Origin: Candidatus Latescibacterota bacterium
GTDB taxonomy: Bacteria > Latescibacterota > UBA2968 > GCA-2709665
NCBI GenBank assembly: GCA_030746455.1
Contig: JASLMQ010000450.1
Coordinates: 1-10,860, forward strand
Direction: 5' to 3'
Length of the DNA: 10,860 nt
This document shows positions 5,204-10,692 of the stretch, piece by piece; the first letter of the stretch is position 1; each line of letters opens with the position of its first letter. Under the pieces are notes generated by a model, which made no database searches, was not told the DNA's origin, and saw nothing but the letters and a program-made list of their open reading frames with translations. The position numbers and the translations under genes are program-made.

Positions 5204-5530
5204 ATGGCACGCCCCCGCAGCAAACCGCGCTCTCGCGACCGGGCTCGGGGTGCCCGAAGGGCGCAGACGGGAACGCCCCAGGTCCCGCGGAAGCTGCCCT
5301 ACACGCGGCGGAACTGGATCGTGTTCGCCGCCGGGATCGGCACGATCCTGATCGGGTATGTGTGCCTTTCGCGGCCGCCCGTGGATGGATTCATGTCGCT
5401 GACGCTGGCGCCCATTCTGCTCGTGCTGGGCTACTGCGTGCTGATTCCGATCGCTTTGCTGCTGGGACCGGGGCAAGCCGATCAGGACGAGAAAGGGGCG
5501 GAACAGCCTGGACAGAACGTGGGCGGTTAG
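5204..5530 (+). CDS. Small two-helix membrane protein, DUF3098-like
   Basis: The 108-residue product has a strongly basic N-terminus (about residues 1-36, many Arg), then two hydrophobic segments: WIVFAAGIGTILIGYVCL (about 38-55) and LTLAPILLVLGYCVLIPIAL (about 66-85). A short acidic/polar tail ends in Gly. The layout LPYTRRNW...IGYVCL...TLAPILLVLGY resembles the DUF3098 family of small inner-membrane proteins, whose role is unknown; I rank this as likely, not certain. The start is one base after the rplS stop, with GAGGA just upstream, so it is probably translationally coupled. Its last three codons and TAG stop (5528-5530) lie inside the tRNA-Val gene that starts at 5521, an overlap of 10 bases. 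Confidence 0.75.
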   Translation: MARPRSKPRSRDRARGARRAQTGTPQVPRKLPYTRRNWIVFAAGIGTILIGYVCLSRPPVDGFMSLTLAPILLVLGYCVLIPIALLLGPGQADQDEKGAEQPGQNVGG

Positions 5531-5597
5531 CTCAGCTGGTTAGAGCGCCTGCCTTACAAGCAGGGGGTCACTGGTTCGAGTCCAGTATCGCCCACCA
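5521..5597 (+). tRNA. tRNA-Val (anticodon UAC)
   Basis: A complete cloverleaf: acceptor stem GGGCGGT pairs with ATCGCCC, D arm GCTC/GAGC, and anticodon stem CCTGC/GCAGG around loop CTTACAA, giving anticodon TAC. The T arm is ACTGG-TTCGAGT-CCAGT, with discriminator A and an encoded CCA. Its 5' end overlaps the coding end of the preceding membrane protein gene by 10 bases, and I see no separate promoter in front, so it is probably cut from the rpsP-rplS operon transcript. Everything from 5552 on is duplicated at 10593, so the present 3' half probably came in with the island. Confidence 0.97.
5552..5597 (+). repeat. attL: 3' half of tRNA-Val
   Basis: Identical over 46 bases to 10593-10638. Extending leftwards (5546-5551 against 10587-10592) gives CGCC matching, then two mismatches (TG against CA). 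Crossover therefore fell at or right of 5552, the edge of the anticodon loop. Confidence 0.9.
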
Positions 5598-5611
5598 ATA
5601 TATCGAGATAA

Positions 5612-5649
5612 AACAATGGCTTGCGCATGGACACGTGCAAGCCATTGTT
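5612..5649 (+). terminator. Hairpin just after tRNA-Val
   Basis: Perfect 13-bp stem AACAATGGCTTGC (5612-5624) / GCAAGCCATTGTT (5637-5649) with a 12-base loop, 15 bases after the tRNA CCA. Only TTG and a later TTT follow, so the U-tract is weak and termination may be partial. As it lies inside the island, the element may supply the new transcript end for the tRNA and the operon in front of it. Confidence 0.55.
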
Positions 5650-5658
5650 GCGTTTGGA

Positions 5659-5682
5659 CGCCTGCTAGAAGGCAGGCGGTCA
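5659..5682. repeat. Hairpin resembling the tRNA-Val anticodon arm
   Basis: CGCCTGC (5659-5665) and GCAGGCG (5672-5678) form a perfect 7-bp stem around TAGAAG. The same CGCCTGC...GCAGG-GGTCA frame occurs in the tRNA anticodon arm (5546-5570), with 17 of 18 positions outside the loop identical and a loop one base shorter. This may be a secondary recombinase core site or an old att remnant. Confidence 0.4.
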
Positions 5683-6240
5683 ATACGCTGCTGCTTCCCC
5701 GAAGGACCAGAGGGGATGTGTGTCCAGGCCCTGAAGATACCAGCCAATATACTGTCTTACAATAGATTCGCCGAATGACAGGCTGGTCACCGGGACGACG
5801 TTGCCTACATCAACTGAATAGGGTCTGCCAGAATCGATCGTCTGAACCCTCCGAGTAGTGTGTTACATTATGTGTTACAGACTGTGAACCATCGGACGAG
5901 ATTCTCCCTGCTTCTCGCTGCCGAGTTCCAGAGGTCCAATGAGAACAGGTATGGCCTGGGCTGAGGGAGTGGCGGAGCCGTAGTCGAAGTGTCTGGCGTG
6001 ACATTAGCGGGCGCGTGTTCCGACGTGGCAGGACTGGATTGGGACTGTGACTTCCTGTTGGGGATGAGGACCAGAAGGTTTCGGCGGTCCGTGGGTAAGC
6101 GGTCAGCATTGATGTATGGAGGGAGCTGGCCCCTGCCTCTTGCTTCCGCGCTGAAGGACCACCCAGCAGCAGATGGGGATTCGGCTCCGCACCCGAGGCT
6201 CCCTCGTCCTGGATACGGGGCTCAGGACCTTGCGGGGGTC
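5683..6240. other. Gene-free stretch at the left end of the island
   Basis: About 560 bases without a convincing gene. Short open frames on both strands show no recognisable domain, and one of them (around 5989-6315) runs over the promoter and Shine-Dalgarno of the next gene. This is where an integrase usually lies in tRNA islands, but I could not find a tyrosine recombinase pattern (R...HxxR...Y) in any frame. The only notable element is the paired TGTGTTAC motif at 5859-5879. Confidence 0.5.
5859..5879 (+). promoter_or_regulatory. Paired TGTGTTACA motif, possible recombinase arm site (left)
   Basis: TGTGTTACA-TTA-TGTGTTACA: two direct 9-mers starting 12 bases apart, 262 bases after attL. 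CTCCG lies 10 bases before and GTGAACCA shortly after. The same arrangement is found at the right end (10535-10554). Confidence 0.4.
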
Positions 6241-6269
6241 TTGCAATTTAGGAATCAGATTCCTATATT
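6241..6269 (+). promoter_or_regulatory. Promoter of the ATPase gene
   Basis: -35 TTGCAA (6241-6246), 17-bp spacer, -10 TATATT (6264-6269). Transcription should start near 6276, giving a leader of about 36 bases. GGAG (6301-6304) lies seven bases before the ATG. No promoter is visible before the next gene, so this one may also drive the primase-helicase. Confidence 0.7.
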
Positions 6270-6311
6270 TCCTGAAACGGCAACCGGATACCTCATTCGA
6301 GGAGAACGTGA

Positions 6312-7484
6312 ATGATCCCGCGATTGCTCGGCGACCACCTTTTGTCCCTTTCCCAGGGCTTTCCCATCCTCTCACTGACAGGCCCCAGGCAGTCTGGGAA
6401 GACCACCCTTGTGAGGGCGCTCTTCAGGGATCATGCCTACGTGACCCTCGAGAACCTGGACGAGAGATTGGCTGCTGAAGAGGACCCGCGTCGGTTCCTG
6501 AGGGCATATGAGGGAACCGGGCTTATTATCGACGAAGCACAGAGGGTGCCCGATCTCTTTTCGTACCTCCAGGGCATCGTCGATGAATCGGACCAGATGG
6601 GTAGGTTCATTCTGACCGGATCCCAGAACTTCCTCCTACTGGAGAAGATCACCCAATCACTCGCCGGTCGTGTGGGAATCTGCAATCTTCTGCCCTTCGG
6701 ATTGCCCGAGCTCGCGTCGGTCGGTTGTGTGCCAGACTCTCTGGATGAGGCCCTCTTTACGGGTGGCTACCCGGTCCTGTATGACCGAGGTCTATCTCCG
6801 AGAGACTACTTCCCTTCCTACATCCAAACATACATCGAACGCGATGTCCGAAGCATAACCAACGTCGTGAATTTGGGCACTTTCCAGAGGTTTGTCCGAC
6901 TGTGTGCGGGGCGAACGGGGCAGTTGCTGAACATGTCGAGCATCGCACAAGAGTTGGGCGTGAACTACAAGACCGTTCGCTCATGGCTTTCTGTTCTCGA
7001 AGCCAGCTATATCGCTTTCACGCTGTCTCCTCATCACCGCAACTACAGCAAGCGCGTGGTCAAGCAGCCCAAGCTTTACTTCTACGACACCGGGTTGCTC
7101 TGCGCCTTGCTCGAGATCCACTCCGCCGACCAGATCGCGAACCACTACCTGAGGGGACAGATCTATGAGAGCTTCGTTGTGGCGGAATATCTGAAGAGCA
7201 GGCATAACGCGGGACTCCGGCCCAACGCCTTCTTCTGGCGAGACAGCTCCGGACATGAAATCGATCTACTACTGGAGGATGGTCCTGTGTACCGTGCAGT
7301 TGAGATCAAGTCGGGAGAGACTCTGCATGGAGATCTCTTCCGCGGATTGCAGTACTTCCAGAAGCTGTCTTCGATATCTCGGGATTCCTGCTATCTCGTC
7401 TATGGGGGAGAACGCAGTCAATCGAGACGAGACGGGCAGATTCTGGGCTGGCGAGACGTCGACAAGTTGCGGATCGGAGGATGA
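6312..7484 (+). CDS. AAA-type ATPase with DUF4143 (PD-(D/E)XK-like) C-terminal domain
   Basis: 390 residues, the typical size of the large prokaryotic ATPase family with a DUF4143 end. The AAA core has Walker A GPRQSGKTT (24-32), Walker B LIIDEAQ (71-77) and sensor-1 LTGSQN (101-106). The family motif YIERDVR (174-180) follows, then a winged-helix segment SSIAQELGVNYKTVRSWLSVLEASYI (about 209-234) that could bind DNA. The C-terminal domain has YESFVVAEYLK (285-295), HEIDLLL (315-321) and AVEIKSG (329-335); Glu286, Asp318 and Glu331-x-Lys333 form a complete PD-(D/E)XK-type set, so nuclease activity is possible. The role of this family is not established; some members lie near toxin-antitoxin or defence genes. 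It is the first gene of the island, with its own promoter, and 120 bases separate it from the primase-helicase. Confidence 0.9.
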   Translation: MIPRLLGDHLLSLSQGFPILSLTGPRQSGKTTLVRALFRDHAYVTLENLDERLAAEEDPRRFLRAYEGTGLIIDEAQRVPDLFSYLQGIVDESDQMGRFILTGSQNFLLLEKITQSLAGRVGICNLLPFGLPELASVGCVPDSLDEALFTGGYPVLYDRGLSPRDYFPSYIQTYIERDVRSITNVVNLGTFQRFVRLCAGRTGQLLNMSSIAQELGVNYKTVRSWLSVLEASYIAFTLSPHHRNYSKRVVKQPKLYFYDTGLLCALLEIHSADQIANHYLRGQIYESFVVAEYLKSRHNAGLRPNAFFWRDSSGHEIDLLLEDGPVYRAVEIKSGETLHGDLFRGLQYFQKLSSISRDSCYLVYGGERSQSRRDGQILGWRDVDKLRIGG

Positions 7485-7604
7485 AGACTGCCCACGAGCT
7501 TCTTGTAGCGGTGGCTGTCTGCCCCATAGCGGTGTCTGTGAAACACGGCGCTTGTCTGACGTACTGCAGATCGTGACCGCGAACACGCCGAGGGACCGTC
7601 CAGG

Positions 7605-10106
7605 ATGAGTAACCGGCCCCGAGAGGAATTGCGGGTGCAGCTTGCCGAGGAGGAGGCCCGACTCGCAGAACTGGAGGCCGAGCGTGAGCGGACACGCGAG
7701 CGGATCGCGGCACTCAAGCTGCGGATCTCTGGTTGCGATGAGAAGGATCCCTCGGTCAGTGCTGAAGCATCTCCGACACAGTCGTCCGTCTCGGCAACTC
7801 CGAGGACATCGGCCGAGAAGATCGCGCTCTTCCGGCAGCTGTTCCGCGGGCGTCCAGACGTGTACCCGAAACGCTGGGTCAATGACGCCAAGGGAACCAG
7901 TGGCTATTCGCCCGCTTGTGCCAACGAGTGGGTTCGTGGCGTCTGTGAGAAGCCCCGGGTCAAGTGCGGCGAGTGCCCAGGCAAGGCGTTTCTCCCGGTG
8001 GACGACGACGTGGTGCGCGACCACCTGAAGGGACGTCACGTGGCCGGCGTCTATCCCCTGCTCGATGACGAGACATGCTGGTTCCTTGCAATCGACTTCG
8101 ACAAGGGCGCGTGGCAGGATGACGTGACGAGTTTCCTGGACACCTGCCATAGAATGGGGGTGCCGGCTGCTGTGGAGAGGTCGCGCTCTGGTGAGGGTGC
8201 TCATGTCTGGTTCTTCTTCACCGCGCCGGTTCCGGCCAACGTCGCTCGGAAGATGGGCTGCTATCTGCTGACGGAGACGATGCAGCACAGGCACGAGCTC
8301 CCGATCCACTCCTACGACCGTCTGTTCCCCAGCCAAGATACGATGCCCCGTGGCGGCTTTGGGAACCTCATTGCCTGGCCGTTCCAGGACGAACCCCGCC
8401 AGCGTGAGAACACGGTGTTCGTGAATGAGGATTGGGTGCCATATGCGGATCAATGGGCATACCTGGCGTCGATTCAACGGATGGCGCCAGCCGACGTTGA
8501 GTCGCTGGCGCGTGACGCGACCCTCAAGGGCCAGGTCCTCGGGATTCGGTCGGTGGAGTCAGAGGAGGATCGTGCCGTAGAGGACCTGCTGACGGACTCC
8601 GCGTCAAGTCTGTCCGAGAAGGCCGCAATCACGGGTCCGATTCCTGCCTGCATCCACGCGGTACTGGCTCAGGTTCTCCTCGTAGAGAAGAACGGTTTGC
8701 CACCCCAGCTCCTGAACCAGATCAAACGTCTTGCGGCATTCCAGAATCCCGAGTTCTACAAGAAGCAGGCGATGCGGCTGTCTACAGCCGTGACCCCGCG
8801 GGTCATCAGCTGTGCCGAGGACCTGCCGGACCACATCGGCCTTCCGCGGGGCTGTCTGCAAGATATTGAGGGACTCCTCGGCGACCTCGGGATCTCGCTA
8901 GAGATGGAGGACAGACGCTCGGCTGGCAACCCGCTGGACCACACCTTCCAGGGTACTCTCACTCCGATTCAGCAGGAAGCCGCACGCGGCATCCTGGCGC
9001 ACGACACGGGTGTGGTTGTCGCTCCTCCCGGATCGGGCAAGACCGTGATCGGCGCGCATCTGGTTGCCGAGCGGGCCCGCAACACGCTCGTCCTCGTCCA
9101 TCGAACACAGCTGTTGGATCAATGGGTCGCGCAGCTGGCCTTGTTCCTGAACATAGACGCAGATCAGATCGGACAGATCGGTGGCGGGAAGCGGAAGCCG
9201 AATGGTTCCTTGGATGTGGCCATGCTTCAGAGCCTGGTCCGGCGTCGCGACATTGGGGGCGCTGTGGGCGACTATGGCCACGTGATTGTTGACGAGTGTC
9301 ATCACGTACCGGCCGTGTCGTTCGAGCGCGTTCTGCGGCAGGTCAAAGCCAAGCACATGACCGGACTGACGGCCACGCCGCGACGCAGAGACGGTCACCA
9401 CCCGATCCTGCAGCAACAGCTCGGGCCTGTCCGCTTCATCATTGATCCGAAGGGCCAGGCCTCAAGTCGGCCGTTCGAGCACCGGCTGATCGTGCGTGAT
9501 ACAGGCTTCAGGCTGACGGAGCCCAGCCCCAATCCGACCATCCAGGGGATCTATCATGAGTTGGCGTTGGATGAGGATCGCAACACACTCATCCTGGACG
9601 ACGTGATCGCGGCTCTGGAGGAGGGTCGATCCCCGCTGCTGTTGACCGAGAGGAAGGACCATCTGCAAATCCTCGCCGATGGCCTCAGAGGCGCTACTCG
9701 AAATCTGATCGTGATGCAAGGAGGGATGAAGGCGACGGAGCGACGCGCTGTCCAGGAGGCCCTTGCCCGGATCAGGGATGAGCAGGAGCGACTGGTCCTC
9801 GCGACGGGACGGTTCATCGGTGAGGGGTTCGATGATTCACGTCTCGACACGCTGTTTCTGGCGATGCCGGTTTCCTGGAGAGGGACTCTGGTGCAGTATG
9901 CCGGTCGCCTTCAACGACGACATCAGAGCAAGAGAGAGGTCCGAATCTACGACTACGTGGACCGGAACGTGCCCATGCTCGCCCGCATGTTCGACAGGCG
10001 CATGCGGGGGTACCGCAGCATGGGCTACTCCCTCAGGGAGCTCGACTCGGCGGGCCATGCAGACGAGGGCTATGTTGTCGAGTACGACGAAGGGATGATA
10101 GAATAG
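7605..10106 (+). CDS. Primase-helicase fusion (TOTE-type archaeo-eukaryotic primase + superfamily 2 helicase)
   Basis: 833 residues. A charged coiled coil (about 6-42) and a Ser/Thr-rich linker (to 66) precede a zinc-binding-like stretch with Cys114, Cys121 and Cys124. The primase-like domain follows: FLAIDFD (160-166, metal-binding Asp164/Asp166), RSGEGAHVWFFF (194-205, His200) and GGFGNLIAWPFQ (250-261). This matches the archaeo-eukaryotic primase domain described from TOTE conflict systems. After a linker domain with NPEFYKKQAMRL (381-392) comes the helicase: APPGSGKT (473-480), VDECHH (562-567), TGLTATPRRRDG (586-597), TGRFIGEGFDD (734-744) and motif VI QYAGRLQRRH (764-773). All key residues are present, so it should be active. 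Likely nucleic-acid defence or conflict, inferred from the domain pair and island setting. GAGGG (7590-7594) precedes the ATG by 10 bases. No nuclease domain is seen in this protein; the upstream gene could supply one. Confidence 0.9.
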   Translation: MSNRPREELRVQLAEEEARLAELEAERERTRERIAALKLRISGCDEKDPSVSAEASPTQSSVSATPRTSAEKIALFRQLFRGRPDVYPKRWVNDAKGTSGYSPACANEWVRGVCEKPRVKCGECPGKAFLPVDDDVVRDHLKGRHVAGVYPLLDDETCWFLAIDFDKGAWQDDVTSFLDTCHRMGVPAAVERSRSGEGAHVWFFFTAPVPANVARKMGCYLLTETMQHRHELPIHSYDRLFPSQDTMPRGGFGNLIAWPFQDEPRQRENTVFVNEDWVPYADQWAYLASIQRMAPADVESLARDATLKGQVLGIRSVESEEDRAVEDLLTDSASSLSEKAAITGPIPACIHAVLAQVLLVEKNGLPPQLLNQIKRLAAFQNPEFYKKQAMRLSTAVTPRVISCAEDLPDHIGLPRGCLQDIEGLLGDLGISLEMEDRRSAGNPLDHTFQGTLTPIQQEAARGILAHDTGVVVAPPGSGKTVIGAHLVAERARNTLVLVHRTQLLDQWVAQLALFLNIDADQIGQIGGGKRKPNGSLDVAMLQSLVRRRDIGGAVGDYGHVIVDECHHVPAVSFERVLRQVKAKHMTGLTATPRRRDGHHPILQQQLGPVRFIIDPKGQASSRPFEHRLIVRDTGFRLTEPSPNPTIQGIYHELALDEDRNTLILDDVIAALEEGRSPLLLTERKDHLQILADGLRGATRNLIVMQGGMKATERRAVQEALARIRDEQERLVLATGRFIGEGFDDSRLDTLFLAMPVSWRGTLVQYAGRLQRRHQSKREVRIYDYVDRNVPMLARMFDRRMRGYRSMGYSLRELDSAGHADEGYVVEYDEGMIE

Positions 10107-10130
10107 CCGGATTCCGTTTGTACGGCTGGC

Positions 10131-10159
10131 TTGACGTTCCGTCGTCGAGTCTGTATATT
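10131..10159 (+). promoter_or_regulatory. Promoter of the UPF0175-like gene
   Basis: -35 TTGACG (10131-10136), 17-bp spacer, -10 TATATT (10154-10159), preceded by TG exactly as in the ffh promoter. Transcription should start near 10166, leaving a leader of about 55 bases. The small gene is therefore expressed apart from the primase-helicase, whose stop codon is only 24 bases upstream of the -35. Confidence 0.75.
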
Positions 10160-10207
10160 CCAATGCTTGCGCTATTCACGCTCTGCCGACGCAAGGAGAT
10201 ACGCGAG

Positions 10208-10234
10208 CGCGAAGCATAGCGATGGCGCTTCGCG
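10208..10234 (+). promoter_or_regulatory. Inverted repeat enclosing the start codon of the UPF0175-like gene
   Basis: CGCGAAGC (10208-10215) and GCTTCGCG (10227-10234) are a perfect 8-bp inverted repeat. The ATG (10222-10224) lies in the 11-base loop. The only good Shine-Dalgarno, AAGGAG (10193-10198), is 23 bases before the ATG, further than normal. The repeat could be an operator for autoregulation or an RNA hairpin that brings ribosome site and start codon together. Confidence 0.45.
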
Positions 10235-10476
10235 GTCAGCCACTTGGCGATGTGGAGTTGACAGATGAGCAGTTGACGGCGGAGATCAGGACGCTGGCTG
10301 CTGTCAAGCTCTACGAAATGGGGCGGGCTTCCAGCGGCCGTGCTGTTGAGCTGTCCGGCCTGCCCCGGATCGAGTTCCTGGACCGCCTGGGACGGTACAA
10401 CGTCTCGCCATGCCAGACCACTCGGGAGGAGCTGAAGTCAGAGGTCGGGGGGCCACGTGCCGACCTGGGTCGGTGA
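10222..10476 (+). CDS. UPF0175-family protein (antitoxin-like), without visible toxin
   Basis: 84 residues. The segment LTDEQLTAEIRTLAAVKLYEMGRASSGRAVELSGLPRIEFLDRLGRYNVS (about 13-62) matches the UPF0175 pattern of a helical stretch, LALKLYEEGRIS-like motif and a helix-turn-helix-like GKAAELAG-WEF segment. UPF0175 proteins are often the DNA-binding antitoxins of DUF3368 PIN-domain ribonucleases encoded just downstream. Here only 116 bases remain before the right island repeat, and no PIN gene fits, so it is an orphan or the toxin was lost. The usual N-terminal strand (an MKTVTI-type opening) is missing; residues 1-12 look unlike the family. The frame is open upstream but has no better ATG, GTG or TTG. 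It has its own promoter. Confidence 0.7.
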   Translation: MALRGQPLGDVELTDEQLTAEIRTLAAVKLYEMGRASSGRAVELSGLPRIEFLDRLGRYNVSPCQTTREELKSEVGGPRADLGR

Positions 10477-10534
10477 TACGTCGTCGATCTGTTACTCAAT
10501 AGGCCTCATCAGGCCCCATGGAATACTCCGGTGC

Positions 10535-10554
10535 TGTGTTACAATGTGTGTTAC
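10535..10554 (+). promoter_or_regulatory. Paired TGTGTTAC motif, possible recombinase arm site (right)
   Basis: TGTGTTACA-ATG-TGTGTTAC, with the same 12-base start-to-start spacing as the left copy. CTCCG lies nine bases before and GTAAACCA shortly after. It lies 38 bases before attR. In a circular form the two motifs would flank the att core on both sides. Confidence 0.4.
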
Positions 10555-10592
10555 GTGCCCGTAAACCACTGCAAATAAAGGATCATCGCCCA

Positions 10593-10638
10593 CCTTACAA
10601 GCAGGGGGTCACTGGTTCGAGTCCAGTATCGCCCACCA
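10593..10638 (+). repeat. attR: displaced 3' half of tRNA-Val
   Basis: Exact 46-bp copy of 5552-5597, including anticodon loop, variable loop, T arm, acceptor 3' strand and CCA. The preceding bases (ATCGCCCA) cannot restore the 5' half, so it is not a working tRNA. It marks the right edge of the island. Confidence 0.9.
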
Positions 10639-10660: not shown

Positions 10661-10692
10661 AGCCCCGAGGCGAGTCAGGTCGCATCGGGGCT
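10661..10692 (+). terminator. Hairpin after the displaced tRNA fragment
   Basis: 13-bp stem with one mismatch, AGCCCCGAGGCGA (10661-10673) / TCGCATCGGGGCT (10680-10692), loop GTCAGG, 22 bases after the CCA. No T-run follows. Before integration it would have directly followed tRNA-Val, so it is probably the original transcript end of the tRNA and its operon. Confidence 0.45.

Follow-up and report, generated by a model that had tools for sequence, protein, structure and literature searches.

A putative integrase-less island in a tRNA-Val gene of a Latescibacterota-like bacterium, with paired arm-like repeats near both ends

Introduction

How can a genomic island come to lie precisely between two copies of a tRNA gene end when it carries no integrase, and could it ever leave again? 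The question is raised by a 10,860-nucleotide stretch of DNA from a Candidatus Latescibacterota bacterium (contig JASLMQ010000450.1 of assembly GCA_030746455.1), here called the window, in which a first-pass annotation had marked out a small island bounded by a duplicated 3' half of a tRNA-Val gene. We find it probable that positions 5552-10638 are a genomic island without an integrase that occupies the tRNA-Val(tac) gene of a Latescibacterota-like bacterium, has complete attachment sites and would be movable only by a helper integrase. The absence of an integrase combined with paired repeats at both ends is more interesting than the duplication itself.

Much gene content appears and vanishes beside tRNA genes without visible means of movement. 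Legible attachment ends that can be assigned to a defined integrase family make the travel of defence genes as integrase-free cargo testable. In the open-licence literature we found no report of the integrase family described below, or of such integrase-free units, in Latescibacterota.

Results

A repeat finder aligned 5546-5597 with 10587-10638 (52 bp, 96% identity). Within this alignment, 5552-5597 and 10593-10638 are identical over 46 bp at a spacing of 5041, as first annotated. ARAGORN calls one tRNA in the whole window, tRNA-Val(tac) at 5521-5597 on the forward strand, and makes no call at 10593-10638. This agrees with the earlier view that the left copy makes the tRNA whole and the right copy is left as an orphan 3' half; we take the two, both on the forward strand, as the cores of the left and right attachment sites (attL and attR). 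The 5,041-bp unit was likewise recovered as described, with three family-matched genes between the copies. The first-pass annotation had also used two mismatches left of the repeat to place the crossover at or to the right of the anticodon loop. The mismatches are there, at 5550-5551, and the likeness continues to 5546 beyond them. As both belong to the anticodon stem, on its 5' strand, a 52-bp repeat with two neighbouring changes is the better description. The placement of strand exchange in or beside the anticodon loop CTTACAA (5553-5559, forward strand) is suggested by other copies and not by the mismatches alone: in locus L154 the right copy, and in L155 the middle copy, begins to match the tRNA only at the loop (L and G numbers are our labels for loci and genomes). 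Anticodon-loop integration sites are a known class (PMC4383910).

Each island end also carries a pair of short direct repeats on the forward strand. The left pair, TGTGTTACA-TTA-TGTGTTACA, lies at 5859-5879, and the right pair, TGTGTTACA-ATG-TGTGTTACG, at 10535-10555; 56 bp separate its first GTTACA from the anticodon loop in the right copy. The repeats within a pair have a 12-bp period. Besides the tRNA repeat, a second and shorter one, TGTGTTACAnnnTGTGTTAC at 5859 and 10535, thus marks both ends; with 2 mismatches allowed, the window contains no further instance of it, and it had 0 matches in 200 dinucleotide shuffles. The looser pattern GTTACn7GTTAC is present in the window only at 5862 and 10538, and in shuffled 350-bp end segments it arose 4 times (left) and once (right) per 50,000 shuffles. 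The left pair is of the 12-bp-spaced GTTACA type and sits 265 bp past the tRNA end, downstream and on the same strand. In a survey of 1.72 Mb of loci in all, with 21 viral loci left out, TGTTACAn5TGTTAC had two occurrences in the window and was otherwise confined to the left ends of tRNA-Val units in G056 (L148, the same as L156) and G046 (L163). From their sequence and placement, the pairs are candidate arm-type sites of an integrase.

The same architecture is found at loci that do encode an integrase. A phylum search with a related pair reached L200, where tRNA-Asp is followed after ~210 bp by a pair and then by a 410-aa tyrosine integrase, and L201, which is similar with only the start of the integrase; L202 is a matching right end, with a pair beside an orphan tRNA-Asp 3' half. 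The integrase family to which the proteins of L200 and L234 belong is compact: 116 proteins are 40-100% identical, after which the score falls from 222 to 60 bits, in a list made up of the best 120 of 199 matches that includes a protein named Gemmatimonadota. Outside Latescibacterota, at E 1e-40, the family was found in 0 of 162 genomes of the class of G084, a search with no positive control. In a 20-member alignment, the invariant columns include R248, R362, H385 and Y394, which we take to be the catalytic residues. Because no Pfam arm-binding domain matched the N-terminal part of the integrase, we can only infer that it binds arm sites.

Integrases of this family adjoin tRNA-Val(tac) in L234, L236, L274 (where the contig ends inside the gene) and L239 (decayed). 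Elsewhere, they adjoin Val(gac) (L238/L275), Arg(tct) (L240, L241), Arg(acg) (L243/L281), Glu(ctc) (L237/L276) and Pro(tgg) (L285, broken); L235 and L242 have no tRNA on the stretch examined. Ten tRNA-adjacent loci were found by protein search, L200 and L201 excluded. An exact GTTACA pair precedes the integrase in L237, L238, L243, L285 and L274, the last being the tRNA-Val(tac) locus with an exact pair. By eye, variant pairs are seen in L241 and L234 (12-bp) and in L240 (11-bp), and none is clear in L236 and L239.

A census of 64 Latescibacterota genomes returned 31 places with the exact pair GTTACAN6GTTACA, 8 of them one tandem repeat in G070. We examined 30 of these places. In 9 cases, a complete tRNA stands 80-221 bp upstream of the pair on the same strand; a tenth left pair (L196, in G056) follows a tRNA-Val 3' half at the end of a contig. 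These ten left pairs are followed by a full-length integrase in two cases (L273, the same locus as L200, and L276), by an integrase open until the contig end in two (L274 and L282, the latter the same locus as L201), by a broken or truncated one in five (L275 and L281, which end early at a stop, L285, L268 and L196) and by none in L263; the window island adds another case of the last kind. A check of 14 loci for a T-loop on the right-hand side identified one of the motif places, L269, as a right end. A right pair (0-2 mismatches) was found in 6 of the 8 orphan 3' halves examined, at 55-57 bp from the anticodon loop, to be compared with 56 in the window. The right ends L155r, L156r and L162r were reached via the tRNA half; L202 and L269 were found through the motif and are thus informative by spacing alone. 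The window island therefore has the downstream pair and the right-pair spacing of the family, and lacks an integrase after its left pair.

These likenesses bear on two explanations that involve no integrase. The window is a short contig and its repeat is long enough to mislead an assembler, so two contigs bearing the tRNA-Val 3' half might have been wrongly joined. We think this very unlikely, as such a join would have had to bring together same-orientation pairs at both ends, at the family distance on the right and close to that distance on the left, and the same kind of structure lies within one long contig of G057. Duplication by homologous recombination or slippage at the tRNA sequence, for which 46 bp of identity could rarely serve, seems most improbable to us: it leaves unexplained both the pairs at the two ends and the likeness to integrase-bearing loci.

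The island has no integrase gene. A Pfam scan of the three island genes and of one further 108-aa island open reading frame (ORF) gave no integrase, relaxase or phage family among the cut-off-passing matches of the three genes. A profile built from 79 family integrases had no match in the island in six frames up to E 10; the same profile does detect remnants in L239 and L156. No integrative and conjugative element (ICE), integrative and mobilizable element (IME) or integrase relic was recognised in the island, nor were conjugation genes.

Most likely, the island was inserted by a tyrosine integrase of the L200/L234/L236 family. Such an enzyme would bind the paired, 12-bp-spaced GTTACA-type repeats near each island end as arms and exchange strands within the tRNA-Val anticodon loop. 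On this reading, the island has both complete attachment sites, core and arms; with no integrase gene it is by itself immobile. A cognate integrase supplied by another element could in principle release it as a circle of 5,041 bp, leaving an intact tRNA gene behind.

Comparison with relatives suggests that this tRNA gene receives such units repeatedly. The TrmD of the window is closest to Latescibacterota records (78% for L001). A tRNA-Val 3' half (up to 9 mismatches) was present in 6 of the 80 loci fetched with TrmD (L001, L003, L004, L005, L006 and L079), one in each within the flank examined, and none of the 80 had a blastn match (E 0.01) to the 222 bases that follow the right copy or to the leftmost 714 bases of the island. 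In the 64 genomes, the tRNA-Val 3'-half pattern was found in 36, in 32 of them with a tac-type loop. More than one tac-type half lies close together on a single contig in G049, G056 and G057, and G046 has two on separate contigs. The first-pass annotation had held that two fragment copies in relatives without the three genes would speak against an island. Such relatives occur, in these same three genomes; but other units lie between the copies, of 5.5 kb in G049, 11.3 kb in G056 and 2.8 and 11.4 kb in tandem in G057, which speaks for an integration hotspot.

The G057 units (L155, oriented 3404-17651) stand on a 6.53-Mb contig, each with a separate 3'-half copy. The 2.8-kb unit has one MacB/FtsX permease gene and the 11.4-kb unit has outer-membrane-like genes by eye, so defence-like cargo is not universal. 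The integrase-free G056 unit (L156, oriented 706-11157) carries PADLOC matches to ZacA, ZacB, ZacC, IetA and IetS side by side. It has kept its left pair, and ~35 bp further on lies the start of an integrase, 52 codons interrupted by two stops, which matches P0128 at 78% identity over 50 residues; the ZacABC and IetAS matches occupy the expected place of the remaining integrase. At L293 (2970-5994), a tRNA-Asp is followed by a pair, a decayed integrase start and AbiEi/AbiEii matches. Defence-like genes after a lost integrase thus recur at two loci, and an integrase may likewise have been lost in the lineage of the window island.

Over 110 bp, the right ends of the units in G046, G056 and G057 agree at 80.0-95.4%, and similarity is lost in the 290 bp that follow inward (32.5-45.1%, with many gaps); the three units thus have a right end of ~110 bp in common and different cargo. 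Between G046 and G057, these 110 bp, which contain no listed ORF, are 84.4% identical, compared with 70.6% for trmD DNA; between G056 and G057, trmD DNA is 92.9% identical. That an ORF-free end is more alike than trmD in G046 and G057 points to transfer between lineages.

Does the island still move? It may be a dead remnant that lost its own integrase by deletion and has been immobile since, its intact ends being merely young, and we give this nearly an even chance. No integrase, relaxase or phage family marks the three genes, and broken, truncated or decayed family integrases are frequent (L239, L196/L156, L268, L275, L281, L285). Searches of G046, G049, G056 and G057 with a family integrase gave best E values of 8.8e-7 to 2.1e-9, the level of Xer. 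However, each end retains an intact pair, and no base differs between the 46-bp copies even though the right-hand copy serves no tRNA. Moreover, the right-end sequence common to lineages with different cargo, and closer than trmD, fits movement of units or of their ends.

Alternatively, family integrases may regularly act in trans on integrase-free units, in the way that transposases mobilise miniature inverted-repeat transposable elements (MITEs). Three islands with unrelated cargo having ~110 bp of right end in common across lineages, the tandem units with their separate 3'-half copies in G057 and pairs at the usual spacing would all be expected. Against this, an intact family integrase was found in 0 of the 4 genomes with integrase-free tRNA-Val(tac) units, genome completeness not being given, and many family integrases are themselves broken. 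We hold regular mobilisation to be possible, at somewhat less than an even chance. On sequence grounds, the intactness of the pairs and the identity of the 46-bp copies speak for recent function, and the frequent decay of integrases and the lack of an intact one in the four genomes favour relics or an outside helper.

Several results weigh against reading the window island as a mobilisable member of this family. Its 265-bp distance from tRNA to left pair exceeds the 80-221 bp of the nine other complete-tRNA loci. The exact TGTGTTACA pair is absent from all 64 Latescibacterota genomes, so that no integrase with matching arms is in hand. Over 110 bp, the window right end is just 44.5-47.7% identical to those of G046, G056 and G057; if the island belongs to the family at all, it thus has another arm specificity. 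No integrase remnant is detectable, and descent from an integrase-bearing element therefore rests on the pairs, their spacing and the site; excision of the island is itself a prediction from sequence. The GTTACA pair is also an imperfect marker. It is not enriched in the genomes (31 places against 68 for a reversed control pattern), which makes its number uninformative and leaves position as what counts. Its exact form stands before only 5 of the 10 protein-found integrases beside tRNAs, and the right pair is missing from L154 and from the middle copy of L155, both of which belong to the permease unit. For the TGTGTTACA pair, in viral contigs, a tyrosine recombinase was found in only 2 of 19 motif records.

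The island cargo resembles a stand-alone module for defence or conflict, centred on a TOTE primase-helicase, a function that we infer from family resemblance. All three genes are on the forward strand. The first (6312-7484) encodes an AAA_14 plus DUF4143 ATPase with Walker A and B patterns and is matched by PADLOC to PDC-S01 (E 7e-100), PDC presumably standing for phage-defence candidate. The second (7605-10106) encodes an 833-aa protein that we assign to AEP-TOTE, in which a primase domain is joined to an XPB/RadD-like superfamily 2 (SF2) helicase and the catalytic motifs are present (LAIDFD, SGEGAH, DECH, APPGSGKT). The third (10222-10476) encodes a small UPF0175 protein, weakly matched to PDC-S70 (E 1e-5); no toxin gene was recognised next to it.

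We tried the TOTE protein as a handle on related islands and gave it up as too common, with at least 7,998 scored candidates matching and 288 plasmid records. No relatives of it were found in viral contigs, and 0 of 1,579 phage records had it with 80% coverage. Thirteen Latescibacterota TOTE regions were chosen by Pfam profile, two of them (L258, L260) without a tblastn match to the window protein. None of the 13 has a tRNA or an exact GTTACA pair, or a tblastn match (1e-3) to the window AAA_14 or UPF0175 proteins or to the L200 integrase. In three of the 288 plasmid neighbourhoods, whose gene tables are incomplete, no AAA_14/DUF4143 or UPF0175 product names appear. The 13 regions and three neighbourhoods thus give no support to the three genes as a conserved operon.

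Discussion

The window island resembles several known kinds of element and matches none of them fully. Cis-mobilizable elements (CIMEs) are ICE or IME relics that have lost their integration and transfer genes and kept attL and attR (PMC5704250). The island is like them in keeping two predicted attachment sites without such genes, whereas it shows no recognised conjugation or ICE relic, and right ends are common to units with different cargo. Clusters of attC sites lacking integrases (CALINs) and MITEs are hitchers whose recombination or transposition sites are moved in trans by an enzyme that they do not encode (PMC11389934). The island, too, has sites and no enzyme, but its sites are tRNA-gene attachment sites with arm-like pairs instead of attC sites or transposon ends.

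Islander and TIGER islands have a restored tRNA gene and a displaced 3' fragment at the far end, and include an anticodon-loop class (PMC4383910). The window has the intact tRNA and a displaced fragment in the same orientation, but not the integrase gene between them; both searches demand one (PMC4383910, PMC12424338), so the unit would go unlisted. In the tandem islands at Dehalococcoides ssrA, where 28 direct repeats were aligned and 16 are said to carry an integration module (PMC3146451), many units are also bounded by copies of an RNA gene end, whereas recombinase (serine), site (the T-loop of transfer-messenger RNA, tmRNA) and cargo (reductive dehalogenase) differ. The Pseudomonas tmRNA islands I23, I44 and I55 have putative or shown defence cargo and no autonomous-transfer genes (PMC12595487); they share with the window island an RNA-gene site, defence cargo (by family resemblance only in the window) and the lack of transfer genes, but encode their own tyrosine integrase. 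Tycheposons, which are tRNA-bounded and carry a tyrosine recombinase (PMC10872708), do not fit as an identity for the island.

We tentatively envisage a Latescibacterota system of integrase-free tRNA cassettes, in which defence or other cargo between standard ends would be captured, swapped and spread in trans by a family of tRNA-targeting tyrosine integrases, though we would sooner bet against it than for it. If true, it would be a tRNA-based counterpart of integron cassettes and MITEs, invisible to island finders that demand an integrase. The signature of a pair plus a tRNA offers a way to count units missed by Islander and TIGER.

Additional observations on the locus and its relatives

Viral contigs yielded 0 records with the exact 46-mer, and their motif records led us to reject the TGTGTTACA pair as a universal mark of integrases. 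In the viral contigs L091 and L106, the pair stands, by eye, just behind the integrase C-terminus, on the opposite side of the integrase from the Latescibacterota arrangement. At L200, the intact integrase is followed downstream by another member of its family, of which a C-terminal piece is present (5244-5501, 66% identical). The integrase-bearing tRNA-Val(tac) locus L290 (G062) has no second 3' half (up to 9 mismatches) in 18.6 kb rightward. An ORF resembling part of an IS3-type transposase by eye follows the decayed integrase start of L293. The right end of the G057 permease unit recurs without a pair in L154 (G049), possibly as another kind of unit. Degenerate pieces of tRNA-Val were seen by eye in L163 (part of a stem-loop at oriented ~6390-6420) and, as a 3' end ~80 bp after the last copy, in L154 and L164, which suggests older insertions at that site.

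In the window itself, ATCGCCCACC at 10585-10594 abuts the left edge of the right copy and repeats part of the tRNA 3' end. GC content falls from 66.0% in the left flank to 59.5% in the island, and GC at third codon positions from 80.0-90.5% to 69.1-74.5%. The genes upstream of tRNA-Val are, judged by their sequence, rpsP, rimM, trmD and rplS. A hairpin right after the tRNA (inverted repeat I1, 5612-5649) is probably a terminator borne by the island; similarly placed hairpins are seen by eye in L200, L234, L236, L237, L238 and L241, and not in L240. Another hairpin, seen by eye right of attR (10661-10692), may be the original terminator of the tRNA gene.

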